Below, piece after piece: positions 36,473-63,399 of a DNA stretch of 64,000 nt. The number at the start of each line of letters is the position of its first letter. Positions within the stretch are counted from its first letter, which is position 1. The notes beneath the pieces are model-generated. The model made no database searches. It worked only from the letters and a program-made list of their open reading frames with translations, and was not told the origin of the DNA. Made by a program: the position numbers and the translations under genes. Location: NCBI GenBank assembly GCA_002733715.2, contig NVWQ02000058.1, positions 1 to 64,000 on the forward strand, read 5' to 3'. This DNA is from Methylophaga sp. GTDB taxonomy: Bacteria; Pseudomonadota; Gammaproteobacteria; Nitrosococcales; Methylophagaceae.

Positions 36473-37777
36473 GTGGAAATAAATAAACTGACAGCTGTTG
36501 GCGTTGCTAATCATAAGAAAAAAGGGCGGTATGCAGACGGTAATGGTTTGTATTTGAATATACAAGCAGATGGCAATAAGAATTGGTTATATCGGTACCA
36601 ATTACGAGGTAAGCGCCATTGGATGGGGTTAGGTGGGTATGATAAGAAAATCAATTCATTGGCGACCGCGAGAGAAAAGGCACTAAAAGCAAAGGCTTTG
36701 GTTGGTCGCGGAATAGATCCTATCTCTCATCGGGAGGATGAAATAAGGAATAATGCTGAGAAAGTATTGATTTCTGCTCAAAATAAAGAAATGGAGGATA
36801 AGCTCAACTCTATGACATTCAAGGTCTGTGCGACAGACTATATCAATAAAATGAAGGGTGAATGGACGAATGAGAAACATACACAGCAATGGAGAAATAC
36901 ACTTGCTAAATATGCCTACCCCTTTATTGGTGAGATGCCCGTAAAAGATATTCAAATTGAGGATGTTAAAAGATGCCTAGATCCTATATGGTCAACAAAA
37001 ACAGAAACTGCCAGTAGAGTTCGCCAGCGAATTGGTTCAATACTTTCTTTTTCGATAGCTCATAAATACAGGCAACATTCAAATCCCGCGATATGGAAAG
37101 GGCTAATGGATCAGTTTTATCCTAGACCAGACAAAGTAAAACAGAAGAGAAGAGAACTTGAAGGAACAAGCGAACATCACGAGGCCTTGCCGTATCAAAA
37201 TATGCCTTCTTTTATTGTTGAACTTAGAAAGTTAGGTGGAACTGCGCCAATAGCTTTATATTTTACTATATTAACGGCATGCAGAACATCTGAAGTACGC
37301 TTTGCAACTTGGGATGAATTTGATCTTGCAAAAAAAGAGTGGAATATCCCCAAGGAGAGGATGAAAGCAAGAAAAATGCACCGAGTAGCCTTATCTAACG
37401 CAGCCGTTGAGCTTCTAAATAGCATGCCTCGGGTCAATAACTTTGTATTTTCCGGGTGGAAATATGATACTTGTTTGAGCGATGGAGCAATGCTTGATGT
37501 ATTAAAAGACAGAATGGATATGAATGTAACTGTCCACGGCATGAGAAGTACCTTTCGCGACTACATAGGTGAAGAAACAGGCTTCCCCCACCGATTAGCA
37601 GAATTTGCATTAGCCCACCAATTAAAAGATGGGGCTGAAAGGGCGTACGCTCGCGGAGATCTACTTAAAAAGCGTTTCAGGATGATGAATGCATGGGCAG
37701 ATTATATCGGAAGCCGCTTGGCTCAAGAAAATGTTATACATATACATAATAAGATCAATGCTAAATCACAGGGCTGA
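36473..37777 (+). CDS. int: P4-type tyrosine integrase
   Basis: This 434-residue integrase has the N-terminal DUF4102 domain of the P4/CP4 family (KKGRYADGNGLYLNIQADG, WLYRYQLRGKRHWMGLGGY), a SAM-like core-binding domain (about 110-200), and a catalytic domain with Arg in LTACRTSEVRFATW, HGMRSTFRDY (HxxR), the later His in FALAHQ and nucleophile Tyr in ERAYARGD. All catalytic residues are present, so it looks active. Start is GTG with GAGG five bases upstream. It probably belonged to a genomic island targeted to a tRNA or similar locus; no intact tRNA is visible beside it. Confidence 0.92.
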   Translation: MEINKLTAVGVANHKKKGRYADGNGLYLNIQADGNKNWLYRYQLRGKRHWMGLGGYDKKINSLATAREKALKAKALVGRGIDPISHREDEIRNNAEKVLISAQNKEMEDKLNSMTFKVCATDYINKMKGEWTNEKHTQQWRNTLAKYAYPFIGEMPVKDIQIEDVKRCLDPIWSTKTETASRVRQRIGSILSFSIAHKYRQHSNPAIWKGLMDQFYPRPDKVKQKRRELEGTSEHHEALPYQNMPSFIVELRKLGGTAPIALYFTILTACRTSEVRFATWDEFDLAKKEWNIPKERMKARKMHRVALSNAAVELLNSMPRVNNFVFSGWKYDTCLSDGAMLDVLKDRMDMNVTVHGMRSTFRDYIGEETGFPHRLAEFALAHQLKDGAERAYARGDLLKKRFRMMNAWADYIGSRLAQENVIHIHNKINAKSQG

Positions 37778-39744: not shown

Positions 39745-40350
39745 TCAATGATACTGTCGGTTTATATAGATCCTGAAGGTGGGTGCCTTATAGTAATCCA
39801 GCTCAAACTCTTCATTTTGAGGTGTATTGTGTGATAGTTTTATTTTCCACCCAATCCGGCAACCGTACATAAAGCCATTTTTATTTTTATAAGGTACAAC
39901 CCAGTAAATACCAAAAGGTTTAAAGAGCCTATGCTTTGTTTTGTGTTCTGCTACTAAAACCTGAAAACCTTCACTCCCAATGTCATCACGAACGTGGTTT
40001 TGTCCTACTTTTAATATCATGCGGTGCTGTCGAATATCAACACCCATAAATACACGTTTAAAATAATTCCACGGGTTACGCCATCCTGACCATATAAGCA
40101 TCTTGATCCAATCCGGCTTACCTTGCATATAAACATTCCAATACCAGCCACGACTATCACCTGTTAAGCCGTCTTCGGGGTTTTGCAACCATAGCAACCA
40201 ATTAGGAAGATCGAATTGCTCTGTACTAGTGCTATCTCTGAATTCCCTAACACCTTGACTCACTTTAAAAGGTAGGCCAATGGCCACTAAAACTAAAGGG
40301 GCAAATATAATAAATAAGGTGATACTAATTATAATTAGTAAGGTCGTCAT
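39745..40350 (-). CDS. Phage protein with N-terminal membrane anchor, paralogue of 51672-52280
   Basis: The 201-residue protein has one N-terminal membrane helix (LLIIISITLFIIFAPLVLVAIG) and a Trp/Asn-rich soluble part: LPNWLLWLQNPEDGL, WSGWRNPWNYFKRVFMG and MYGCRIGWKI. The same order of motifs is in the protein at 51672-52280. I recall such proteins in prophages under a DUF7338 label, without known function; the label is tentative. It lies between tail-fibre genes and dam, where accessory genes are common. Confidence 0.7.
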   Translation of the reverse strand: MTTLLIIISITLFIIFAPLVLVAIGLPFKVSQGVREFRDSTSTEQFDLPNWLLWLQNPEDGLTGDSRGWYWNVYMQGKPDWIKMLIWSGWRNPWNYFKRVFMGVDIRQHRMILKVGQNHVRDDIGSEGFQVLVAEHKTKHRLFKPFGIYWVVPYKNKNGFMYGCRIGWKIKLSHNTPQNEEFELDYYKAPTFRIYINRQYH

Positions 40351-45230: not shown

Positions 45231-46371
45231 TGAGCACCTCCAATGCATCACCACCACTAACGAAGCCCGGGTGCCGCACATTATTGCGACGAATTATTTC
45301 AGAATCGCGCCCAGCGTCACCATATAACTGATGAGCAATAACTAATGCAGATTGAGATATTAACGGTGTATGGGTGTTTAGTTTCGGCAAATCAGCACCA
45401 CGAGTGCGAATATCGTCAATGATGGCCACACGCAAATTTAATAGTGATTGATAGACACAATCACTCATATTGTCGGCATGCATTTGTAGGTCTAATTCAG
45501 CTAACAATCCATTGCGAATGTTTATTGCATCGTCTAATGAATCATATTCGGCTTCACTTGAGCTGCGGCAGGCTTCAATTAATGCACCGCGTGTTGCCAA
45601 GTCATGCACTGCTTGCGTGCTTATTGTTTGTTGCTTGCGACTTATTGTTGCTGTTGAAATGGTAGGTCTATCATCACCTATACCGAACAGGTTGGTATAC
45701 AATTTTATGGCATTAAAAGGCTCGGCTATTTTCTGGCCAATGCGATTGATTGAATCAATAATTGATGTACCCAAATTAAAAGGTGGACGAATCAGTGCGG
45801 TGATAGGATCGATAACCTCACCTACCTGATCGTCGATATCTGCTAACACGCTCTGGATGCTATTTTGCAATTGTTCAAAGTGATTGGCCTGTAATTTTTC
45901 ATCATTGAACGTCGTTGAAAAATCATCAATAACTTGTTCTTGAGCGACATCGGCTTCTGTTTGCACTTTAGCTTGGGTGTCAATCTGACGGTTTGGAAAG
46001 GTGTTGGCGCCAGCAATAATAAACGTAAGTGTGAAACGGCAACGCCCGCCTTGTTGATTGGTTTCGTTGGTTCGTGCATTAATTAAACTGACACGCATAG
46101 TGCCTAGATACGGATGCACTAACGTACCTGGTCCCGCTTTTTCTAATTCTGCCATCAAGGCATCACGATCAATATGATAATCATCGCCGATCACAAAGGC
46201 ATCAAAGCTAAATTGACGTGCTTTTAACCCCAAATCTTCTGTATAAGGCGTGTTGCGCAGTGGGTATTCATGCACAGCATTACGGCGACCTAATTCAGTG
46301 TCGGCACTTTTAACCAAAAACTCGGCATTGCGAAATTTGCCAATGCCATCATAATCATCGCGCCAGCTCAT
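45223..46371 (-). CDS. Mu gpN-like protein with DNA-circularisation N-terminal domain
   Basis: The 382-residue protein starts MSWRDDYDGIGKFRNAEFLVKSADTELGRRNAVHEYPLR. That and GTLVHPYLGTMRVSLI are typical of the DNA-circularisation/gp43 family, which in Mu is a tail/baseplate protein and, in related phages, protects injected DNA. It starts at the base where the tape-measure gene ends. Confidence 0.9.
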   Translation of the reverse strand: MSWRDDYDGIGKFRNAEFLVKSADTELGRRNAVHEYPLRNTPYTEDLGLKARQFSFDAFVIGDDYHIDRDALMAELEKAGPGTLVHPYLGTMRVSLINARTNETNQQGGRCRFTLTFIIAGANTFPNRQIDTQAKVQTEADVAQEQVIDDFSTTFNDEKLQANHFEQLQNSIQSVLADIDDQVGEVIDPITALIRPPFNLGTSIIDSINRIGQKIAEPFNAIKLYTNLFGIGDDRPTISTATISRKQQTISTQAVHDLATRGALIEACRSSSEAEYDSLDDAINIRNGLLAELDLQMHADNMSDCVYQSLLNLRVAIIDDIRTRGADLPKLNTHTPLISQSALVIAHQLYGDAGRDSEIIRRNNVRHPGFVSGGDALEVLNV

Positions 46372-47765
46372 TAGTTAGCACCCATTGTCAGGCCAGTGTC
46401 GACTTCAATGTCTAGGTTTTGGCTGGTGATTGATTTAACTTTTACAGCTGCATCGCTTTTTATTTCTAGTTCTATTTTGCTTTTTTGGGATTGGCCGCCA
46501 TATTCTTCTAGTGATAAGGGTTGTGTGGAGAAGATTGAGGTTAGGGCTTTATCAAAATAATGTTTGAAGGCACTGTAGCCAGTGACAGAATCCGCTATTG
46601 CTACGGTTGCCATGTTTAGATTGTCGAATGCCGAAACACCACTGGCCGAATTGAAAGCATTGGCTAGATCTTTGGTGGGATTGCTAAAAATTGCATCTGC
46701 CGCCGCTGCACCTTTATTGCTGATAGCTTGAAATGAAGCTTTTGCTGTACTCGCATTTTTAAGGGCATCTTTTAGTATCTCATTGCCATCCCCTCGTATT
46801 TTACTTAATACAGGTAATAACTCTGTTGATCCTTCAGAATTAAGCCCCTTGAAAACTACCAGTGCCTCTTTACTAAAGACCTTCCCCAGTAACTCCGCGT
46901 TGCCGTTGGCCGCCTGATTAATTTCAAGAGCCAATTGACTAGGCAATTTAAATGCCCCTGATTTATCTCGAACGCTGATCCCTTTTCGCCCTATTTTCTG
47001 TTGAACCTCGTCTGTTAGTAGCTCAGCAGCAAATGCCTCAATAGCTGTGACCGCTTCGGCGGGTGTACCTTTCGCTCGCTTTGCAATTTGAGCCAGCGCC
47101 GCCAAATCAGCCGTTAAAGCCTCACCAGCCAAACCCAAACCGGCCATAGAGGCAAACAACTTAGGTCCTACCGTTGCTAGATCATCAAAACTTACTGCTC
47201 CTGCTTCACTTATAACTACCAACCCATCAAGAGCTTTAAAAACATCTTCTGATTTGCGAATATTTTGCAGATAAAGTGATGATGCAACATCAGCTACTTT
47301 TCCTAAATCACTATTGGTAGCTCTGGCGGTCAGCGCTATGTTTCTGATATTGGCTTCGGCAAACTCCTTATCACCTGTCAGAGTGATTACCTTTTGCACT
47401 GCGGCCAATATCGCGCCCGGTGATAAACGTACATCTCGTTGATTAGCCACTTCAATAATCTTATTTTTCAGGCTCGCTATTTCACTGTCACTATAATTAC
47501 CACTTGTTTGCAGTTGCGTGACGTTGGCATCAAAATCAACTACCTTGCTAGCAGCATTAAAGGCTTTATACGCTACGGCTGCCCCTGTTAACCTGCCTGC
47601 AAGCTTGCCAAAACCACCACTTAATCGTCGAGTCTTTTTATCCATTCTATCTAGATCACGGCCACCGTTACGCGAAAACTTACTAATAGCTTGCGTATTG
47701 CGTTTGAGTTGTTTTTCAAGGTTGCCTACCAAGTCAACAACAATGCGGGTTTCTAGTTCACTCAT
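46371..47765 (-). CDS. Tail tape-measure protein, short
   Basis: The 464-residue protein resembles TP901-type tape measures: helical N-terminus (IVVDLVGNLEKQLKRNTQAISKF), then a region VDFDANVTQLQTSGNYSDSEIASLKNKIIEVANQ and AEANIRNIALTARATNSDLG. It lacks a long membrane-active segment, and is shorter than I recall for Mu, suggesting a short tail or loss of part of the protein. ATG at 47765, four bases after the stop of the predicted frameshift product of the preceding gene. Confidence 0.85.
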   Translation of the reverse strand: MSELETRIVVDLVGNLEKQLKRNTQAISKFSRNGGRDLDRMDKKTRRLSGGFGKLAGRLTGAAVAYKAFNAASKVVDFDANVTQLQTSGNYSDSEIASLKNKIIEVANQRDVRLSPGAILAAVQKVITLTGDKEFAEANIRNIALTARATNSDLGKVADVASSLYLQNIRKSEDVFKALDGLVVISEAGAVSFDDLATVGPKLFASMAGLGLAGEALTADLAALAQIAKRAKGTPAEAVTAIEAFAAELLTDEVQQKIGRKGISVRDKSGAFKLPSQLALEINQAANGNAELLGKVFSKEALVVFKGLNSEGSTELLPVLSKIRGDGNEILKDALKNASTAKASFQAISNKGAAAADAIFSNPTKDLANAFNSASGVSAFDNLNMATVAIADSVTGYSAFKHYFDKALTSIFSTQPLSLEEYGGQSQKSKIELEIKSDAAVKVKSITSQNLDIEVDTGLTMGAN

Positions 47766-47769
47766 GGGG

Positions 47770-48250
47770 TTAGATATAGCTCCAAAGTTTGCGTAATGTT
47801 AATTTTTCAAAGGTGGTTTGAGGCCACCCATACCGTTTAGTTAGCAACAGCGTGACGTGTTCAATCAGCTTCGCTGTCACTATCAGTTCGCCCCCGTGTC
47901 GCTACCTCCTTGAGCGTATTGTTTGAGGCGTTATCCATTTTTTGTTGTGCATCAAGCAATAGATTTAGATCGCTTGGGTGTAGCTTCTTCAGCTCCGCTA
48001 AATCTAAAGGCCCTTGATGATCATCAATGCATTTAATTTGACGTCGCAGCACATGCCCTGTCATTAACGCAGGGCTGACTACGAATTGGGCTTCAACGCC
48101 ACCTTCTGCTGTTGGCACCATCATTAGCTTTTCGCTATCTTCTTGTGCCTCCATAATGTCACCCGCAATGGCCTCACGTAGCACGGCTTGTTTGTAAGTG
48201 ATATCACCGACTTTCAAGCCATGCTGTAGGGTTACTTTTACTTGTGCCAT
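47770..48250 (-). CDS. Predicted -2 frameshift product of the tail chaperone gene
   Basis: At CGGGGGCGA (47896-47888, minus strand) a shift of two bases back lets translation continue into a second open frame that encodes 40 more residues, including LIEHVTLLLTKRYGWPQTTF and LTLRKLW, before TAA at 47772-47770. It gives a product of 160 residues. The extension looks like the T/E' part of other tail chaperones (aromatic, hydrophobic helices, LTL.KLW). It fills the otherwise unexplained gap before the tape-measure ATG. I recall that Mu itself uses a -2 shift on such a G run. The frame change and the open frame are seen; the frameshifting is inferred. Confidence 0.75.
47861..48250 (-). CDS. Tail assembly chaperone gp41-like, zero-frame product
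   Basis: The 129-residue protein (LQHGLKVGDITYKQAVLREAIAGDIMEAQEDSE) is of the Mu gp41/P2 gpE kind: it coats the tape measure before tube assembly. It lies between the tube and tape-measure genes, as usual. The final codons run over the run of five G that is the presumed slippery site. Confidence 0.88.
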   Translation of the reverse strand: MAQVKVTLQHGLKVGDITYKQAVLREAIAGDIMEAQEDSEKLMMVPTAEGGVEAQFVVSPALMTGHVLRRQIKCIDDHQGPLDLAELKKLHPSDLNLLLDAQQKMDNASNNTLKEVATRGRTDSDSEAD

Positions 48251-48252
48251 GA

Positions 48253-48606
48253 CTAAATCTGATCAACTGATTCGGCTGACATTTTCAATGGTGTCTTGCC
48301 TGATGAATCAAGTGCTAGTGGCTCGGTAGTAAAGGCGTTGCGCATTACAAACTGTTGCCCCGTGTCCGCTTCAAAAAACACGGTGACATTAGTCATATCG
48401 TTTAACTTAGCAATGTTGGTGTCTTTAGTAATGAGAACGCTGCACTCCATTAATGGTGCTGTTTCTTCTTCAGTGAAGTAGGTTTCGCCACCATGACGTT
48501 CTGGGCTTCTGTTAACACCCTGCATGGTTAATGTGGCTTGATTTTCAGTGGCTAATACAGATCCATCGACGCGGATAACTGCTTTTCCTGACATTTGTCC
48601 TGACAT
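48253..48606 (-). CDS. Tail tube protein gp40/gpM-like
   Basis: The 117-residue tube monomer begins MSGQMSGKAVIRVDGSVLATENQATL and carries VNRSPERHGG, typical of Mu tail-tube proteins. The ATG has an AGGAG-like site and lies 16 bases after the sheath stop. Confidence 0.92.
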   Translation of the reverse strand: MSGQMSGKAVIRVDGSVLATENQATLTMQGVNRSPERHGGETYFTEEETAPLMECSVLITKDTNIAKLNDMTNVTVFFEADTGQQFVMRNAFTTEPLALDSSGKTPLKMSAESVDQI

Positions 48607-48621
48607 TATTATTTCTCCTAA

Positions 48622-50088
48622 TTATCGACGGAATTCAGTGTGAACAGCTGTCACACGTAATTGACCCACTAACAATGGTGAGTCATAGACATTGAGACGA
48701 TCACGATCATTTGCATCGACCTCGGTTAATAAGGCTTCTTTGTAGCCTTCATAATCTTGCACCCAGCCGCGCTGTTCCATCTCGGTATACAGCACTAATA
48801 ATTCTGCTTTAGCTATTTTGGGTTGCATAATCGCTTGACCCGGTGGCACACGCATAGTGTCTTCTGCCAATTTATGACGTGGGTATTTTTGAGCAAACAT
48901 GGCGCGTTGTTCAAAGCGAATACGCTCCAGTGTTTCGGGCGTGTTGATATTGAGATAACTATCATCAGCCAGTGATGCACTGTTGGTTTGATACATTGTG
49001 ATTTGACGCTCAATGACCACGCTGCCATCGTTATCAACGGTGTAGGTGGCAATACCATCAAACAATAATTGATTACGCTCAGTGTCTGTCCAACGTTTTT
49101 CTTTAACCGGGGCTTTTAGGCCGGTTAAGTCTAAGCGTTGTAATGGCCGCGCAGGGTCGATAGATAAATATTTAGCACCCACAATGGCATTAATGCTGGC
49201 CCATATATAGGGTGGCTCAGGTACGATATTTGTACCCATGCATGTGATATGTGGATTGTTGCGCGCATTACCAAACGAACCTGACGCAGCATGTGTGCCA
49301 CGATAGGCTGTGAAGGCACGCATGCCGATTTGACGCAATGGCCCCCAACGGCTATCAAGTTCAGTTTCAAGTAGAACAAGGTTGGCCGTATCGGTAAACG
49401 GCATCACGATCCAGTTGTACCATTCGTCACCCATTGCAGCGATTGTAGCTGTAATATCGGGGTTGGTTGCACCTGTGGCCATACCACCAAACGTCATCAC
49501 TACACCTGCTGGCGTACGTTCATCAAAATAATTCATTCGCACATCGATGTCGTTTCCGGTTTCACCTTTCCATCTGCATGTAATATCAACTTGATTTGTG
49601 GTGACACCGTTTACAACTGCTGTAACAGGCAAACTTGTATCGGCATTTACAGCTGCTGCGATGGCCGTTGCAATCGTGTCTTGACTATCACCTGAAGTGA
49701 CGCCCACCCGAATACGTTTGCCTGCAATATAAACGGCTAGCGTGCCGTTTTCTGTAGCGGCACCTGTTGCAGTGATGGTGCCTGCTGCTGCACTGCCTGC
49801 ACCGACTTCGTCAGATGCAATTGCCCATGTCTCCATAAACTGTTCAGCATTTTTAATAGCTCTAAATTGTTCTGCTAGCATACTGCCTCGGCCAAAGAAC
49901 TCTTCAGCTTGTTCAACCGTGTTGACACGCGTTGGCACGCCTGCAGCTACAGTGCCTGTTGATAGTCGTTGACCTGCCACCAGTACTTTAAAGTTAATAG
50001 AAGCATTGCCCGCTAGTCGATTATCAAACTCGATATAAGTACCTGGAATGCGTAGGCTTGATGGAATTTCGTTAAATCCGATACCCAT
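48622..50088 (-). CDS. Contractile tail sheath protein gp39/gpL-like
   Basis: The 488-residue sheath protein starts MGIGFNEIPSSLRIPGTYIEFDNRLA and has the inner-domain segments WKGETGNDIDVRMNY and DEWYNWIVMPFTD. The C-terminus includes MRVPPGQAIMQPKIAKAEL and PLLVGQLRV. This shows the phage is a myovirus. It overlaps the DUF2635 gene by one base. Confidence 0.94.
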   Translation of the reverse strand: MGIGFNEIPSSLRIPGTYIEFDNRLAGNASINFKVLVAGQRLSTGTVAAGVPTRVNTVEQAEEFFGRGSMLAEQFRAIKNAEQFMETWAIASDEVGAGSAAAGTITATGAATENGTLAVYIAGKRIRVGVTSGDSQDTIATAIAAAVNADTSLPVTAVVNGVTTNQVDITCRWKGETGNDIDVRMNYFDERTPAGVVMTFGGMATGATNPDITATIAAMGDEWYNWIVMPFTDTANLVLLETELDSRWGPLRQIGMRAFTAYRGTHAASGSFGNARNNPHITCMGTNIVPEPPYIWASINAIVGAKYLSIDPARPLQRLDLTGLKAPVKEKRWTDTERNQLLFDGIATYTVDNDGSVVIERQITMYQTNSASLADDSYLNINTPETLERIRFEQRAMFAQKYPRHKLAEDTMRVPPGQAIMQPKIAKAELLVLYTEMEQRGWVQDYEGYKEALLTEVDANDRDRLNVYDSPLLVGQLRVTAVHTEFRR

Positions 50089-51265: not shown

Positions 51266-51672
51266 TAGTAAGACTCCCAATCATGTTTGCTAACACCTTG
51301 ACGAACTGTGGTGGCGTGTGATGAATCGCTATCTTGGCCACCGGTATCACCCAAGGTAACTTTTCCTTCAGCCACTTTTGTCAGCCACTTAATCGCTTTC
51401 TCGTAACGGTCTTTCACTTCATCGGTGGTGCGGTCGTCATAGAGTCGATAGCGTGCAATATCGCAGGCATAAATAGTAAGCACTGCAGGTGTACTGCTTA
51501 ATGGCAGGGTGTAAACCGTAGCTAAATAACTGTCAATTTCAGCTGCGGCATCGGCAATCGCTAAATCAATAATGGCGCTGTCTAAAGTGCCATCTTGATC
51601 GCGATCTATGATCAGCAATAATTCTTGATTGCCATAGCGGTCGATTAGGTTTTGTTGGGTGCAGTAAGTCAT
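51265..51672 (-). CDS. Mu gp36-like head-tail protein (DUF1320)
   Basis: The 135-residue protein starts MTYCTQQNLIDRYGNQELLLIIDRD, with AIADAAAEIDSYLATVYTLPL, matching DUF1320/gp36. It is a head-tail joining protein in Mu-like phages. The ATG at 51672 overlaps the upstream stop (TAATG); the frame upstream is in the other gene. Confidence 0.88.
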   Translation of the reverse strand: MTYCTQQNLIDRYGNQELLLIIDRDQDGTLDSAIIDLAIADAAAEIDSYLATVYTLPLSSTPAVLTIYACDIARYRLYDDRTTDEVKDRYEKAIKWLTKVAEGKVTLGDTGGQDSDSSHATTVRQGVSKHDWESY

Positions 51673-52280
51673 TATTGATATCTGCTCATTAGGCCGATCC
51701 GAAACGTCATGCCTTTCCATAACTTGCGAATCGGCTGATGTATATCAACGGGGAAATGACGTGGCTCGATTTTATGACCAAGTCTTACCCAAAAAATATC
51801 GCCCACGTAGAGGAAATTGTAATAGCGAAAATATTTACCTTTAACGGCAAAGAACTGATGGCCTTTAAGATTGTATTTAGCACTGACGCGGTCAGATGTG
51901 CCTGCAAGCAAAGTATATTCCCGCACTTCATGTAAATTAACAGCTAAGCCCCGTGTAAACTTCAAGTTGTTTGACGGGTTTCTAATCGCCAACCATTGCC
52001 ACATTGATAGCAGTGACTTTGGATTTTTATCCCAACATATTTCTGGCCATTTCTTCATCCATGACATAGCGCCTTCGCTAGCGTTTCCCCATATCCACGC
52101 CCACTTGGGCAGGTTTACTATCATACGAGTCGGATAGCTCTGCTTTAAAGGGTCTCGAACGGGTGAGGTTATACGCCATCGCAGTGCGATAGGCACAACA
52201 AAAATGCCTAGCACATAAAGCGGCAACTTAACTAATAAGAATAGTATCAACCATGAAATAATCGCTTTTAATATATGCAT
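51672..52280 (-). CDS. Phage membrane-anchored protein, paralogue of 39745-40350
   Basis: The 202-residue protein has an N-terminal helix (AIISWLILFLLVKLPLYVLGIFVVPIAL) and a soluble part with LPKWAWIWGNASEGAM, WQWLAIRNPSNNLKFTRGL and MTFRIGLMSRYQ. The order of motifs repeats that of 39745-40350. I start it at the ATG at 52280, with AAGGTG nine bases upstream; a GTG at 52292 is also open. It is an addition inside the head-tail module. Function unknown. Confidence 0.7.
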   Translation of the reverse strand: MHILKAIISWLILFLLVKLPLYVLGIFVVPIALRWRITSPVRDPLKQSYPTRMIVNLPKWAWIWGNASEGAMSWMKKWPEICWDKNPKSLLSMWQWLAIRNPSNNLKFTRGLAVNLHEVREYTLLAGTSDRVSAKYNLKGHQFFAVKGKYFRYYNFLYVGDIFWVRLGHKIEPRHFPVDIHQPIRKLWKGMTFRIGLMSRYQ

Positions 52281-52343
52281 TTTGGTGTGCACCTTAATTA
52301 CTGTAAGCGTCTACAGCATCTTTTTTTGCTGTTCTTTGCTTAT

Positions 52344-58033: not shown

Positions 58034-58531
58034 TCATGTCGATGCCAACTCTATTAGGTCGACTATATCCTTTTTAGCTGGCATTTGTTTTTTTTCATTT
58101 AGTTCGTCGTTTACCATTCTAATAATTTTTGCTTTCTTTGCCGCTGTTATAGTTTTACCAATTTCAGACACGCAGACCTCAACATATTCTATAGCGCTTT
58201 CTAGTGTTTTTGTTTGGCACACCAAATACTCAAGCTTGGTCTCAGACACTATAAGATGATCACCCATATCTTCATCATACATATCCATGTCGTCACACAT
58301 CATCGGAGGCGCACCTCGGAAAAGCCACTCCAAGCTAATGTTTTTCACAAATGCGAACTCTATAAAAACATCATTTGAATAACTATGCCGTTTCCTCCAT
58401 GTTGATATAGTAGACGTACCTATACCAAGAGCTTTGGCTACATCAACATCCTTGTTAGAGCCTAGATATTGCTTCACCCTACCAAGCAATAACTCAAGAC
58501 CTTCATTCTCATTTGAGATATTCATTGACAT
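58034..58531 (-). CDS. Phage repressor with CI-type helix-turn-helix
   Basis: The 165-residue protein has an N-terminal DNA-binding domain (VKQYLGSNKDVDVAKALGIGTSTISTWRKRHSYSNDVFIEFAFVKNISLEWLF), typical of the Bacteriophage CI repressor family. No LexA-type peptidase region is present; the rest is helical. Divergent from the Ner-like gene, it is in the place of the Mu c repressor and should maintain lysogeny. Confidence 0.88.
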   Translation of the reverse strand: MSMNISNENEGLELLLGRVKQYLGSNKDVDVAKALGIGTSTISTWRKRHSYSNDVFIEFAFVKNISLEWLFRGAPPMMCDDMDMYDEDMGDHLIVSETKLEYLVCQTKTLESAIEYVEVCVSEIGKTITAAKKAKIIRMVNDELNEKKQMPAKKDIVDLIELAST

Positions 58532-58635
58532 ATGCGAACCCTGTAAGTATTATTTCTCTCATACGCGAATTAATTCGCTTTCAAATGCAAAAAAACAAGC
58601 ACTGTAAAGATGCCTGTCTATTTCAAGGAGTAATT
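58532..58635. promoter_or_regulatory. Divergent operator region between repressor and Ner-like gene
   Basis: It contains the perfect 14-bp palindrome GCGAATTAATTCGC (58565-58578) and a half-site TGCGAA near 58533. A 10-bp sequence TGTAAGTATT at 58542-58551 recurs at 58905-58914 before the next gene. These are likely binding sites for the repressor and Ner-like protein. Confidence 0.65.
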
Positions 58636-58863
58636 ATGCACCATGCCGAAATTTTCTGCTTACTAATGAAGCGTAACGTCACGATGGTATCTATTGCACG
58701 ACAAGAAGATGTTAGTCCGAGCGTTGTCACTGAAGTTATTCGGGGTAAAAAAACCAGTTTTGCCGTTGCTACCGCCATTGCAGTGAAGGTAGACCGCAGC
58801 TTAACAACATTGTGGCCCGGTAAATATGACCACCGCATATCAGATGAAAGTAAAGCAGCTTGA
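58636..58863 (+). CDS. Ner/Nlp-like early regulator
   Basis: The 75-residue protein (MHHAEIFCLLMKRNVTMVSIARQEDVSPSVVTEVIRGKKTSFAVATAIAVKVDRSLTTLWPGKYD) has a Ner-type helix-turn-helix. In Mu, Ner represses the early promoter after the start of lytic growth. The ATG at 58636 has AAGGAG five bases upstream; the longer frame begins in the operator. Confidence 0.88.
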   Translation: MHHAEIFCLLMKRNVTMVSIARQEDVSPSVVTEVIRGKKTSFAVATAIAVKVDRSLTTLWPGKYDHRISDESKAA

Positions 58864-58930
58864 TGTTTCATTTGTTTTCCCGTTTAAAAATTCAATGCAC
58901 ACAGTGTAAGTATTCGCAGGAGAATTGTTA

Positions 58931-59407
58931 ATGGAAAAAGACGAGCAAAGTTTTACCAGCGTTCAGCCTGATCTGTTTCAGCAACTCGCTGACCATGAGC
59001 CTGAATACTTAGCCGCCAACGCACCCGACTTAGATATTGAGCAAGAGTTTATGGGGGCCATTAAATACGCATTACGCACCGCTAAGAAGCGGGGCTTAAG
59101 TAGAGAGCGCATTGTTGACCGAATGAACTTATGCCTACCTGAAGAACTGTATATCACCAAGCGCCAACTAGATGCATGGTGTGCCGAATCAAAAGAATAT
59201 CACCACTTTCCAGCTATCTATTTATCAGCCTTCATCTGGGCAACCGGCGGCATTATCTCACCACTAGAAATATTAAGCCGCGCGCTAGGCCTGCATCTAT
59301 TAGATGAACACGAACAACTGGCAGCACAACTAGGGCAATCAATGCTCACTAAAGTGCAAGCCAGCAACACTGAAAAACGAATCAAAAAACAATTTGGATT
59401 TAATTAA
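58931..59407 (+). CDS. Early phage protein, function unknown
   Basis: The 158-residue protein, mostly helical (EQEFMGAIKYALRTAKKRGLSRERIVDRMNLCLPEELYITKRQLDAWCAESKEYHHFPAIYLSAFIWATGG), resembles early proteins of BcepMu-like prophages, in my memory. The SRERIVDRMN part could be a DNA-binding helix-turn-helix. Start at 58931 has AGGAG before it. Confidence 0.7.
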   Translation: MEKDEQSFTSVQPDLFQQLADHEPEYLAANAPDLDIEQEFMGAIKYALRTAKKRGLSRERIVDRMNLCLPEELYITKRQLDAWCAESKEYHHFPAIYLSAFIWATGGIISPLEILSRALGLHLLDEHEQLAAQLGQSMLTKVQASNTEKRIKKQFGFN

Positions 59408-59417
59408 GGACAACACG

Positions 59418-59681
59418 ATGACTGATGAACAATTTGAAGAAGGCATGTCAATTATAAACCCCGTGCTAGCCCACCTCACTTACTTAACATTGCCAAGAGC
59501 AGATGGCAAGCTAAGAACGATGGATGATATTGCTTCAACCTTCACTGCAGGATGCCAAGCAAACAATATAGACGTTGATCTAATGCTAGAAGATTTAGTG
59601 CAAACAGCAGAGGGCATTAGAATTTTTGGCAAAGGATTAATGATAGCGGTGGCACGACAAAAGGAGCGTGGCAATGACTGA
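59418..59681 (+). CDS. Small early phage protein, function unknown
   Basis: The 87-residue protein (EQFEEGMSIINPVLAHLTYLTLPRADGKLRTMDDIASTF...) is probably helical. AAGGA precedes the ATG at 59418. It overlaps the next gene by eight bases, showing translational coupling. Confidence 0.6.
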   Translation: MTDEQFEEGMSIINPVLAHLTYLTLPRADGKLRTMDDIASTFTAGCQANNIDVDLMLEDLVQTAEGIRIFGKGLMIAVARQKERGND

Positions 59682-60693
59682 TACTAATCTTCCCCAAACA
59701 ACTATTGAAGACGACCAGGCTAACAGCGGCCTAGTAATGCAAATCATTGGCAGAGTGCAAATGGGCAATGCGATGAGTAATTTTTTAGCTACCGTTAGCA
59801 CTTTAGAAATGCGTAAAGTTAAAGAAAGCAAGGCTTATAGGGCGTTAAAAGGGCATTCACTACCAGATAAGCATGGCAATAAAATAGCTAACGTTAGCAC
59901 TTGGGCGGGTTTTTGTAGGGCTTGTGGCCTCACCGATAAAAAAGTAGATGAGGATATTCGCAACTTAAATACCTTTGGCGAACAAGCTTTAGAATTAATG
60001 CAACATGCGGGCATTGGTATTCGTGAAATGCGCCGCTTGCGTCAGCTACCAGAAGAGGAGTTAATCCGGTTAGAAAACAAGGTCATCAATGCTAAGGATA
60101 CCGTTGAGGTTGTTGATGTTATTGAAGACTTAGTGGCCACCAATCAAGAGCAACAGCGCCTAAACGGTGACTTAAAAGCCGATAACGTTAGTCAAAACCA
60201 TCAACTCGATGTGCTCGAAGTTGAAAACGAACAGTTGCGTGATCAACTAAAAGCACAAAGTGTGAACTCATGGCCGCAATACACCAACATGATCCGCATG
60301 GAATCATCGGCACTGGGTGATAAAGCGGTGATGGCGATTGATGAGCTTGAGCGGCTATTGGTCAAGGTTGAACAACCTGAACTTGATATTGATGACCCCG
60401 AGCGGGTGGCTCATTACAGTGCAGCCGTTATTTCGTATTGGACTAACTTGCGCTTTATTCAAGCCCGTATTAGTCGATTAATCCCCATTGTTCATGATTC
60501 ATTATCTGAAGCGATTGATGAAGCACCAGAAGCCTTGGGAATGGCATCAATGGAACCCGAAGAAATCATTAGACTGACGAACAATAGAAACCTATTAGTG
60601 CATGAGTTTGAGCGTGACGCATTAGCACGAGAAGCACGCCGAATGAATAATAAACCCAAGCGTCGACGCTCAAAAAAAGCAAAGGCTGAATAA
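59674..60693 (+). CDS. Early phage protein with coiled coil, function unknown
   Basis: The 339-residue protein has DUF3102-like helical features, ending with a coiled coil (LDVLEVENEQLRDQLKAQS) at about 178-196 and a Lys/Arg-rich C-terminus (KPKRRRSKKAKAE) likely to bind DNA. It lies one base before the transposase gene. Start at 59674 has AAGGAG; function unknown, perhaps part of the transposition machinery. Confidence 0.65.
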   Translation: MTDTNLPQTTIEDDQANSGLVMQIIGRVQMGNAMSNFLATVSTLEMRKVKESKAYRALKGHSLPDKHGNKIANVSTWAGFCRACGLTDKKVDEDIRNLNTFGEQALELMQHAGIGIREMRRLRQLPEEELIRLENKVINAKDTVEVVDVIEDLVATNQEQQRLNGDLKADNVSQNHQLDVLEVENEQLRDQLKAQSVNSWPQYTNMIRMESSALGDKAVMAIDELERLLVKVEQPELDIDDPERVAHYSAAVISYWTNLRFIQARISRLIPIVHDSLSEAIDEAPEALGMASMEPEEIIRLTNNRNLLVHEFERDALAREARRMNNKPKRRRSKKAKAE

Positions 60694-62369
60694 TGAGTGC
60701 CAGCACTAATGTCGTGCCGTTAACGCCACAAATGCAATTTGCTGTTGCAATGAATGATTCCGATTCACTGTGGAGCAAACTGACAGACAAAAAAAGGCAA
60801 AAAGCAACGGACATTGCTACGCTTATCAAGCCCGCCATTGACTATCAACAAGCCACTAATCAGCACCATATTCGACCTTTGGCGGAGTATTTACATTTTC
60901 ACCTAAGTCAGAAGCGGTTGCCCGAAAAGCTATTGAAGCTAGCCAAATTATTAGCACAAAAGGATAAGGCGCTTCCCAGCCAAACAACACTGCGTCGTTG
61001 GATAGAGCGTTACATGGAGCAGGGCTTAATGGGTTTGGTTCCTCAGCAAAAAGGCAGCGTTCCAAAACCATTAGGCTGCGAGGTACGCATTCGTCATCTG
61101 ATGCGGTCAGGCTCTAAAAACAACCCGGGCAATATCACTAAGATGTTGCAACAAGAAGGCCACGATGTTGAATATCATCAAATCCGTAGACGGGTGATAG
61201 CGATGCCCGCCATTGAAGGCACACATAATTCAGGGCGGCTTGGCGCACTTGCCTTTGATAGCATGATGAAACCTTATACACGCCGTAAAACAGGGCATAT
61301 GCCGGTCGGCTCTTGTTATCAAGCTGATGGCAATATGATGCCTATTTATTTACAGCATCCAACGGGTAATCGTCCTGCTCGGTTTGAAATTACGCCGATC
61401 ATTGATGTGGTGAGCCGTTACATTGTGGGCTATTACATTAGTGAATCAGAATCAGCGATAAGCACTGTAATGGCATTGACTGACGCTATTATAAAAGAGA
61501 ATCATGTGCCGATTGATCTGCAAGCAGATAACGGCCCCGGCTTTAGCAATTCATTGGTGACTAGATATTACGAAAAACTCGGCATCACTGAAGTTCATCC
61601 CCGCGCTAGAAACCCTAAAGACAATGGTTATGTTGAGCGCTTTAATTTAATACTGAAAGAAGAGCTTCTTAAACAGTTCCCCGCTTATTGTGGCAAAGAT
61701 GCCGCGCCAGAACCATTGCAATTGTATCTTAAAAAGGTCGATAAAGGCGAAAAGCAACTGATGAGTGTTGAGCAGTTTAAAGTGTTCCTTGATGAATACA
61801 TTCATTGGTATAACCATAAACGTAAACACGGCTCTATTGGCAATAAAACACCTGCACAGTTATGGGCAAACGTAGAGCGTAATCCACCTATTGACGTGCA
61901 AGATGTGTTCTTTTGGGACCAAGCAGAGCGCGTGGTTCAGCGTAGTGCCATTTCGTTTGAAAGCAGGGAATATTATTCGCCTGAACTTATTCAATACAAC
62001 ACTGAGAAGGTGATTGTTGAATTTAATATTAACGACGATAGCTTTGTAAAAATACGTGATCTTGATGAACGTTGGTTATGTGATGCTCAAAAAATCAACG
62101 CTGCACCTTATCGTTCTATCTCTATTCTTGAAGATAGAAAACAAAAATCACTTATTCAAAAACGTAAGCGTCTGCAAATCAAAATGGATGAGGTGGAAGA
62201 TCGGAATGCGCTGAACATCACACATGAAAATTGGCTTGATGGTGCCATGTTATTAGATCCAACACCAAGCCTACAACAAAAAACGGCATCCGAAGATGCC
62301 GTCTTAAACGCTAACGGCGACCAGACCGAAAGCGAAATCAATATCGATATTTTCGATACCGACTACTAA
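60693..62369 (+). CDS. tnpA: DDE transposase (TnpA, MuA-analogous)
   Basis: The 558-residue transposase has helix-turn-helix domains near the N-terminus (about 60-190), an rve-type catalytic core and a beta-rich C-terminal domain. The catalytic residues are Asp212 (QADGN), Asp279 (QADNGPG) and Glu315 (NGYVERFN), giving DD35E spacing, which is that of Tn552/IS21/retroviral integrases and of BcepMu TnpA as I recall, not the longer DD55E of MuA. It cuts and joins the prophage ends. It overlaps the preceding gene by one base. Confidence 0.94.
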   Translation: MSASTNVVPLTPQMQFAVAMNDSDSLWSKLTDKKRQKATDIATLIKPAIDYQQATNQHHIRPLAEYLHFHLSQKRLPEKLLKLAKLLAQKDKALPSQTTLRRWIERYMEQGLMGLVPQQKGSVPKPLGCEVRIRHLMRSGSKNNPGNITKMLQQEGHDVEYHQIRRRVIAMPAIEGTHNSGRLGALAFDSMMKPYTRRKTGHMPVGSCYQADGNMMPIYLQHPTGNRPARFEITPIIDVVSRYIVGYYISESESAISTVMALTDAIIKENHVPIDLQADNGPGFSNSLVTRYYEKLGITEVHPRARNPKDNGYVERFNLILKEELLKQFPAYCGKDAAPEPLQLYLKKVDKGEKQLMSVEQFKVFLDEYIHWYNHKRKHGSIGNKTPAQLWANVERNPPIDVQDVFFWDQAERVVQRSAISFESREYYSPELIQYNTEKVIVEFNINDDSFVKIRDLDERWLCDAQKINAAPYRSISILEDRKQKSLIQKRKRLQIKMDEVEDRNALNITHENWLDGAMLLDPTPSLQQKTASEDAVLNANGDQTESEINIDIFDTDY

Positions 62370-62388
62370 CTAACAAAAGGATTATAGC

Positions 62389-63399
62389 ATGACTAATAAA
62401 ATTGAATACCCTGAAAAATGGCACGACAGTTACACGCATAGAAATCGGCAAGATGTGCTAAACGCAATTGATTGGATGAACAAGCACCAACGGTCACAAG
62501 CCAAACTGGCTAAAGCATGCCACGTGTCTGCCACCACCTTTAATAACATTATTAAAGGTAGCTACCCCAGCCAACCCTTGCATCATATTCGCAAGATAAT
62601 GGATGCCATTAAACTATCAGACCAGCGCCAAAAAGAAGGCGTACACGATTGCCCATTCGTTGAGACCAGTGTTTATCGCACTGTTATTGCCGCTTGCAAG
62701 CGCGCGCATTTATATCGCAACTTTTCAGTGGTGTCAGCCTTTGTTGGCACAGGCAAAACACGCGGGCTTAAACAGTATGCCGCTGATAACTCAAATGTAA
62801 TATTACTTGAAGCCACCCCTGATATGAATGCGGGTGTTTTAGTGTCAGAGCTGGTTGATAAAACCAACGCCATTGTCCATAAATCAAACCGATATGCGGT
62901 CGGCACTAAGGCTGAAAAGGTGGTGGCCGTTGTCAATGTGCTGCGCAATACCGACAGCTTAATTATTCTTGATGAGGCCGAAACAGTGTGCACCGCAACG
63001 CTTGAGTATTTGCGCCGCATTAGCGACAAAGCCAATATCGGTGTGGTGCTGGCTGGCACTGAAAGATTGAAGCCTTTAATTAAAGATCCCCGTGGTCGTT
63101 TTGGTCAAATAAGTTCACGCGTTGGCTTCTGGCCCCCCGTGATTCAGGGCATAACTGAAGATGATGCAGCGGCATTATCAGCAGCCGCATTTGGTGACAA
63201 TGAAGCACTATCTGATGACGTATTAAACGCCTTATGGCAAATGTGTGATGGCTCTGCGCGTGTATTAGTGTCGGCTTTAATCCCCGGTGTTAAGGATTAC
63301 GGTCTTAAAAAAGGCAGTGAGCTATCGCCCGAACTGATTATTGAAGTAGGACAAAAAGTTTTAGGCTTCACACCGCGCCCTGTGCGGAAGGATTTCTAA
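62389..63399 (+). CDS. tnpB: MuB-like AAA+ transposition ATPase (TnpB)
   Basis: The 336-residue ATPase chooses target DNA and activates the transposase. An N-terminal helix-turn-helix (QAKLAKACHVSATTFNNIIKGSYPS) is followed by the AAA+ domain: Walker A SAFVGTGKTRG, Walker B LIILDEAE, sensor VLAGTERL. AAAGG precedes the ATG region. It follows the transposase as in Mu. Confidence 0.93.
   Translation: MTNKIEYPEKWHDSYTHRNRQDVLNAIDWMNKHQRSQAKLAKACHVSATTFNNIIKGSYPSQPLHHIRKIMDAIKLSDQRQKEGVHDCPFVETSVYRTVIAACKRAHLYRNFSVVSAFVGTGKTRGLKQYAADNSNVILLEATPDMNAGVLVSELVDKTNAIVHKSNRYAVGTKAEKVVAVVNVLRNTDSLIILDEAETVCTATLEYLRRISDKANIGVVLAGTERLKPLIKDPRGRFGQISSRVGFWPPVIQGITEDDAAALSAAAFGDNEALSDDVLNALWQMCDGSARVLVSALIPGVKDYGLKKGSELSPELIIEVGQKVLGFTPRPVRKDF

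Follow-up and report, generated by a model that had tools for sequence, protein, structure and literature searches.

What is encoded in the 95 nt (47860-47766) that separate the tail assembly chaperone gene from the tape measure gene in the window (the whole 64,000-nucleotide stretch of Methylophaga sp. DNA that was analysed)? A reading made from the sequence alone proposed that this gap is an open frame read as a continuation of the chaperone, reached when ribosomes slip by -2 at a run of G. That proposal is supported: the gene is a homologue of Mu gp41, its G run is in phase and leads to the same frame as in Mu, and the extension is homologous to those of relatives. The locus is very probably a programmed ribosomal frameshift of the phage Mu gp41 type, directed -2, in a variant with an internal Shine-Dalgarno (SD)-like element.

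Gene layout and reading frames

The tail genes in the window are part of a Mu-like prophage and lie on the minus strand in the order found in Mu: sheath, tube, chaperone and tape measure, then the baseplate hub and wedge genes. The tail sheath protein gene (48622-50088) is a homologue of Mu L (phrog_165, E = 2.2e-184), and the tail tube protein gene (48253-48606) matches PF10618 (E = 1.3e-25). The chaperone open reading frame (48250-47861) ends in a TGA at 47863-47861 and encodes a zero-frame protein of 129 aa with matches to PF23746 Gp41_Mu (E = 2.9e-30), PF10109 (E = 1.4e-5) and phrog_508, tail assembly chaperone (E = 7.9e-26). The tape measure protein gene (46371-47765; 464 aa), whose ATG begins at 47765, matches PF10145 (E = 3.7e-13) and phrog_973, tail length tape measure (E = 5.3e-25).

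The prophage has divergent arms, with the tail genes on the minus strand and the transposition genes and portal on the plus strand. At 58034-63399, a repressor is encoded on the minus strand and a MuA-like transposase and a MuB-like ATPase on the plus strand; the Mu portal gene lies on the plus strand past the end of the window (G000:C60:72573-73586). A tyrosine integrase gene (36473-37777) is found near the tail-fibre end of the prophage, adjoining an NAD(P) transhydrogenase beta gene. Two prophage proteins, encoded at 39745-40350 and 51672-52292, match phrog_2143, a family of unassigned function (E = 2e-16 and 6.6e-9).

The putative slip site, CGG_GGG_CGA, is read in the zero frame as Arg-Gly-Arg at 47896-47888 of the minus strand, with the G run at 47891-47895. 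The sequence-only reading had placed this run exactly where a -2 shift needs it, and the sequence bears this out base for base. A -2 slip on GGG would yield a product of 160 aa, of which 40 residues, counted from the GGC at 47892, are new. The extension, 40 codons and a TAA stop (47772-47770), thus spans 47892-47770, and four bases (CCCC) separate the stop from the tape-measure ATG; the length of the product and the four-base interval had both been predicted correctly. A +1 slip would lead into the same tail with one Gly fewer, giving 159 aa. For a -1 slip, the same reading expected a TGA at once; the TGA is reached, but only after two codons (Ala-Asn), and the site is not a tandem heptamer of the form X_XXY_YYZ with a -1 shift. 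Upstream, the extension frame is closed by a TAG at 47904-47902 and is open from 47901 to 47773 (43 codons), which confines any shift into it to the interval from 47901 to the zero-frame stop. This interval comprises the last dozen or so zero-frame codons and contains the G run.

The extension in related phages

An alignment with Mu had been suggested as a check, and in it the homologous gene, the gene order, the in-phase G run and the frame all agree. The Mu chaperone gene carries an in-phase CGG_GGG_CGA identical to the window's, and in its GenBank record, AF083977, a joined product is labelled 'verified -2 translational frameshift in PMID 15469818' (the paper of Xu, Hendrix and Duda, 2004). 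In-phase GGGGGCGA is present in all nine of the phage loci first examined (Mu, D108, SfMu, B23, Pmp9, martha 12B12, MuM16-2, Vibrio 1.028.O and Klebsiella Kp4866-3), three of which are Mu or its near relatives. In the eight loci with an annotated tape measure gene, the -2/+1 frame runs without a stop as far as that gene or slightly into it; Kp4866-3, whose record lacks annotation, likewise has a long open extension. Among ten phage records examined at the chaperone region, one of them without any annotation, AF083977 alone annotates the long product. The gene for gp39 of Burkholderia phage KS10, as read, has no run of at least four G or at least five A or T, and the part of PMC2628397 available to us reports no frameshift region for this phage.

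A wider set was drawn from phage records, viral contigs and genomes. It comprised 138 gene readings, 85 of them distinct, of which 83 were kept and grouped into 35 clusters at 70% protein identity, clusters that are not fully independent; a looser clustering at 50% gave 13 groups. Left out were one distinct reading of the same gene as L096 (L093, L095, L097, L099, L100 and L105) and L140, which has an early stop. L001 and L013 (the window itself), L003 (Mu again), L017 (a weak match) and L018 (on the minus strand) were not entered, and L050 and L065, with frames that disagree with those of close relatives, are described only. Related-locus searches of viral contigs with the window protein and of genome contigs with A2 returned no relatives.

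In-phase GGGGGCGA occurs in 66 of the 83 distinct loci, the window included. The extension lies in the -2/+1 frame in 29 of the 35 clusters and in the -1 frame in the other six. The slip words of the 29 are GGGGGCGA (21 clusters), AGGGGCGA (3), CGGGGGGAG (2), CGGGGAGAG (2) and CGGGGGAAG (1); the sites of the eight clusters without GGGGGCGA were set by eye, which could favour G-rich choices. Among the -1 clusters, L015, L016, L043, L068 and L072 have a G_GGA_AAN-type word and L071 has its site at GGGGGAA; in four of the six, anti-SD pairing at the spacing tested reaches at least -5.1 kcal/mol in strength. The SD and codon tests below cover the 29 -2/+1 clusters only. Within this one chaperone family, the mode of frameshifting looks to have changed, between -2 on GGG_CGA and -1 on G_GGA_AAN, while the extension stayed.

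Three loci have features of their own. L018 (genome G240, reverse strand), which enters none of our counts, shows an in-phase CGG_GGG_CGA and a -2/+1 frame that stays open to an ATG, but no GAG at the SD place, which makes it a further instance of the slip site without the usual SD. In Marinomonas rhodophyticola (NZ_JAPEUL010000004.1; L089:1201-1680), there are four G rather than five, and chaperone and extension form one open frame, either through a natural fusion or through a homopolymer sequencing error; this locus belongs to the cluster of L059. In a single genome from the host's family (G437), the Mu-like chaperone gene of L096 occurs twelve times; the copies agree at all of the 420 bases compared, have the slip word CGG_GGG_AAG and reflect either a phage that transposed many times or an effect of assembly.

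We assessed the extension itself with a profile built from the extensions of 46 relatives, leaving out the window's own. The window extension, within the open segment 47773-47901, matched with E = 5.4e-10 and was the sole clear match, the next best of the 1794 open segments in the window reaching E = 0.069. The -2 extension profile also gives 8.9 to 25.0 bits for the -1 extensions and 7.4 to 39.2 bits for the non-standard -2/+1 extensions, with other frames of those loci at 2.3 bits or less; it supports the frame weakly in L036 and L096 (7.7 and 7.4 bits). The extension looks homologous across the change between -2 and -1 mechanisms, the lowest of these scores being weak.

The extensions of relatives evolve as coding DNA in the extension frame. 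Past the zero-frame stop, substitutions at codon positions 1, 2 and 3, counted over pairs so that one change is counted in many of them, number 35, 53 and 274 in the B23 cluster, 5, 0 and 35 in the Mu cluster, and 4, 4 and 32 in the L109 cluster. The largest cluster (L006, from Vibrio and Shewanella), in which the pairs are more diverged, has a weaker position bias (1164, 523 and 1671), with 1256 synonymous and 1192 nonsynonymous codon changes. Searched against Pfam, the window extension gave nothing meaningful (best, TARBP1 at E = 0.033, under its cut-off), and against PHROGs it had no match. Two PHROG families of unassigned function, phrog_12783 and phrog_10716, match the -2 extensions of Mu and MuM16-2 (L002:1126-1281 and L007:1132-1281; E = 5e-30 and 9.6e-15), and these families are probably frameshift tails annotated as separate proteins.

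Codon choice and candidate stimulators at the slip site

Codon use at the site was compared with that elsewhere in the same genes across the 29 cluster representatives. Where the first codon is Arg, it is xGG in 25 of 25 cases, and xGG makes up 0.17 of Arg codons elsewhere. The Gly slip codon is GGG in 27 of the 29 (0.17 elsewhere), and all 24 third codons that encode Arg are CGA (0.11 elsewhere). The ratio of CGA to AGA at the third codon is 24:0, against 16:7 elsewhere (p = 0.00016), and AGA would be silent in both frames. CGA is a codon that E. coli reads slowly, by inosine wobble alone. The host has 39 tRNA matches, several of them without typing and some cut at contig ends. At these loci ARAGORN identified Arg anticodons ACG, CCG, TCT and CCT, with TCG absent among those typed, and Gly anticodons TCC and GCC. 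CCC was likewise absent among the typed matches, an absence that is not firm because several matches were not typed.

Upstream of the site, the window contains the SD-like sequence AAGGAGGT (47911-47904, minus strand), a presumed stimulator of frameshifting in which the last G of GGAGG lies nine bases before the G run. This feature was not mentioned in the sequence-only reading; it is an added, statistically supported part of the site that is absent from Mu's own. To measure it, we paired 8-mers from the 29 representatives with a generic anti-SD tail. The mean pairing energy is -5.9 kcal/mol at a gap of 9 nt, whereas gaps of 14 to 39 nt give means between +0.24 and -0.84 kcal/mol, and in ungapped register the best element stands at 9 nt in 15 representatives, at 12 nt in 10, at 8 nt in one, at 14 nt in one and elsewhere in two. 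With synonymous codons drawn afresh from the genes themselves, best energies averaged -4.35 kcal/mol (sd 0.44) and none of 300 redraws reached the observed -6.50; redrawn from pooled usage, the mean best was -3.99 (sd 0.47), with none of 2000 reaching it. The amino acids therefore carry part of the SD signal, not all of it. Single-cluster versions of this test have little power, with p = 0.15 for the window, two of 29 below 0.05 and L094 going the opposite way (p = 0.97).

The Glu codon within the element is GAG at all 26 codons scored (in 24 of the 29 representatives), compared with 137 GAG to 144 GAA elsewhere (p = 8e-9). Across 75 distinct loci, a count that excludes the L089 fusion, 65 have GAG and five GAA, these five (L049-L053) carrying the GAA directly after a GAG. 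At 50% clustering, GAG occupies the SD place in 11 of 13 groups, Mu and Pmp9 being without it. Exceptions among the 29 are Mu, with no element (-1.1 kcal/mol), Pmp9 (-3.6) and L036 (-3.0), where it is weak, and L063, where the best position is at 21 nt; the SD is thus not essential. The element probably raises the slip rate. Service to the tape-measure start was considered and rejected, the element lying about 140 nt before that ATG. In the literature searched, which included few subscription papers, no SD at a -2 frameshift site came up, nor did one in the available portions of PMC5009743, PMC4378225, PMC2628397, PMC10885494 and PMC3711429.

Downstream, a hairpin is predicted at 47882-47842 (minus strand) that may be a second stimulator. 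An 11-bp outer stem (47882-47872 with 47852-47842) encloses an inner stem and begins 8 nt after the GGG codon, with a folding energy of -15.9 kcal/mol on 60 nt (z = -1.9) and z = -2.32 on 84 nt. In 50-nt windows of the 29 representatives, mean z is -1.07 (se 0.26) immediately downstream of the site and -1.01 (se 0.31) a further 20 nt along, with means of -0.72 to +0.39 at the other offsets tested. This modest signal, on which the sequence-only reading was silent, is no more than suggestive of a stimulatory hairpin.

Proposed mechanism and comparison with known systems

The frameshift reading is supported by the sequence, by homology, by the coding signal in relatives and by conservation at the nucleotide level. 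From these we infer that the slip occurs, which way it goes in the window phage, how often, in what order the tRNA moves, how the stimulators act and what the two products do, as follows. Most ribosomes would stay in the zero frame and produce the chaperone of 129 residues. In a minority, while glycyl tRNA sits on a P-site GGG and a poorly read CGA waits in the A site, the ribosome would slip back two bases and the tRNA would re-pair with the first three G of the run. Reading would resume at GGC-GAA-CTG and onward, giving the 160-residue chaperone with its 40-residue C-terminal extension. The SD-like element 9 nt upstream would probably raise the rate of slipping, and the hairpin 8 nt downstream may do so. 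By analogy with lambda gpG/gpGT, an analogy of place and layout, the short form may coat the tape measure protein and the long form may recruit tail tube subunits; in lambda, according to the portion of PMC5009743 available, the tape measure is bound by the short chaperone and tube subunits are recruited by the long one.

The same frame could be reached by a +1 shift at the same codon, glycyl tRNA moving from GGG to GGC, with a product of 159 residues. Three clusters with NAG_GGG_CGA (L036, L038 and L042) fit this better, since there a -2 slip lands on AGG with a mismatch and a +1 slip lands on GGC, and L089, which with one G fewer reads straight through, is what a +1 event would give. The first two G of the run, however, are needed for -2 re-pairing only, and they are kept: neither reading constrains the third base of the first Arg codon, which is nevertheless G in all 25 cases. 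In L094 and L117 the site is CGG_GGA_GAG, on which a -2 slip lands on GGG and a +1 slip would land on GAG. The part of PMC5009743 consulted gives the spacing of a stimulatory SD as 9-14 nt in -1 shifts and as 3 nt in +1 shifts; because the SD-like spacing of 9 or 12 nt falls within that published for backward shifts, the element argues for a backward rather than a forward slip. The GenBank annotation of Mu is also -2. A +1 shift is improbable, and, if a shift occurs, we take -2 to be much the likelier direction on this comparative evidence.

Explanations without a frameshift at the ribosome fare less well. The extension might be a separate small gene with its own start, translated by ribosomes that reinitiate or that bind at the SD-like element, an element able in principle to start translation; in D108 a gene of this kind is annotated as 41.5, and the two PHROG families treat extensions as separate proteins. 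The window's only ATG, GTG or TTG in frame within eight codons of the site, however, is a GTG that follows GGC by four codons and lies over 20 nt downstream of the SD, eight of the 29 representatives have no start codon within eight codons on either side, and a separate gene gives no reason for the conserved G run and CGA. We regard it as very unlikely. RNA polymerase slippage on the G run, producing a share of mRNAs with an altered G count that are read straight through, would draw on the homopolymer and on the genomic fusion with one G fewer in L089, but the run has only five G, and longer stretches of A or T are the usual place for such slippage. The variants GGGGAGAG and AGGGGCGA shorten the run, and these, together with the SD spacing and the retention of CGA over AGA, point to the ribosome, leaving a polymerase origin extremely unlikely. 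Just as hard to credit is an ordinary intergenic gap whose frame is open by chance and from which nothing is read: at 43 codons the open stretch is short enough for this, but the homology of the extension, the third-position excess of substitutions in relatives and the conserved slip site all speak against it. We therefore retain the -2 ribosomal frameshift as the preferred reading.

This type of frameshift is already known from Mu, and the new part is the SD-like element at a -2 site. In the part of PMC5009743 available, Mu is named as the only phage with natural -2 frameshifting, alongside arteriviruses and a Trichomonas virus. Somewhat tentatively, we favour a broader reading in which SD-stimulated -2 slipping is the usual mode in Mu-like phages, with the internal SD at 9 or 12 nt and often a downstream hairpin, in which the family has changed between -2 and -1, and in which Mu, the sole verified case, would be an exception that lost the SD or never had it. 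With 29 clusters, a core that does not vary, an SD at a set position and variants found in nature, a two-base slip of the bacterial ribosome would become testable. For annotation, it matters that the long product is mostly missing from the phage records examined and that two PHROG families of unassigned function probably consist of such extensions.

The closest known system, Mu gp41, shares with the window a homologous chaperone, the slip site CGG_GGG_CGA in the same phase, the same target frame and an extension that reaches the tape measure gene. It differs in lacking the SD-like element that the window has at 9 nt, in a downstream structure that is no better than shuffles (z = 0.09) where the window has a predicted hairpin at 8 nt, and in the length of the post-slip extension, 51 residues in Mu and 40 in the window. 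In lambda and P2, the chaperone gene is placed between the tube and tape measure genes, the P2 gpE/E' pair being a like case. As with lambda gpG/gpGT and P2 gpE/E', the window would use one gene for two chaperones, a short and a long one (for lambda, in the part of PMC5009743 available), but those systems shift -1, whereas the window site would shift -2 with only the one tRNA in the P site. E. coli dnaX, as described in PMC5009743, has a similar three-part layout of upstream SD, slip site and downstream stem loop, and the window's SD-like element at 9 nt falls within the 9-14 nt spacing of -1 shifts. There, about 50% of ribosomes shift -1 on A_AAA_AAG, whereas the window's predicted shift is -2 on GGG_CGA. 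The window site may thus work like dnaX, yet it is not a -1 site of the dnaX type.
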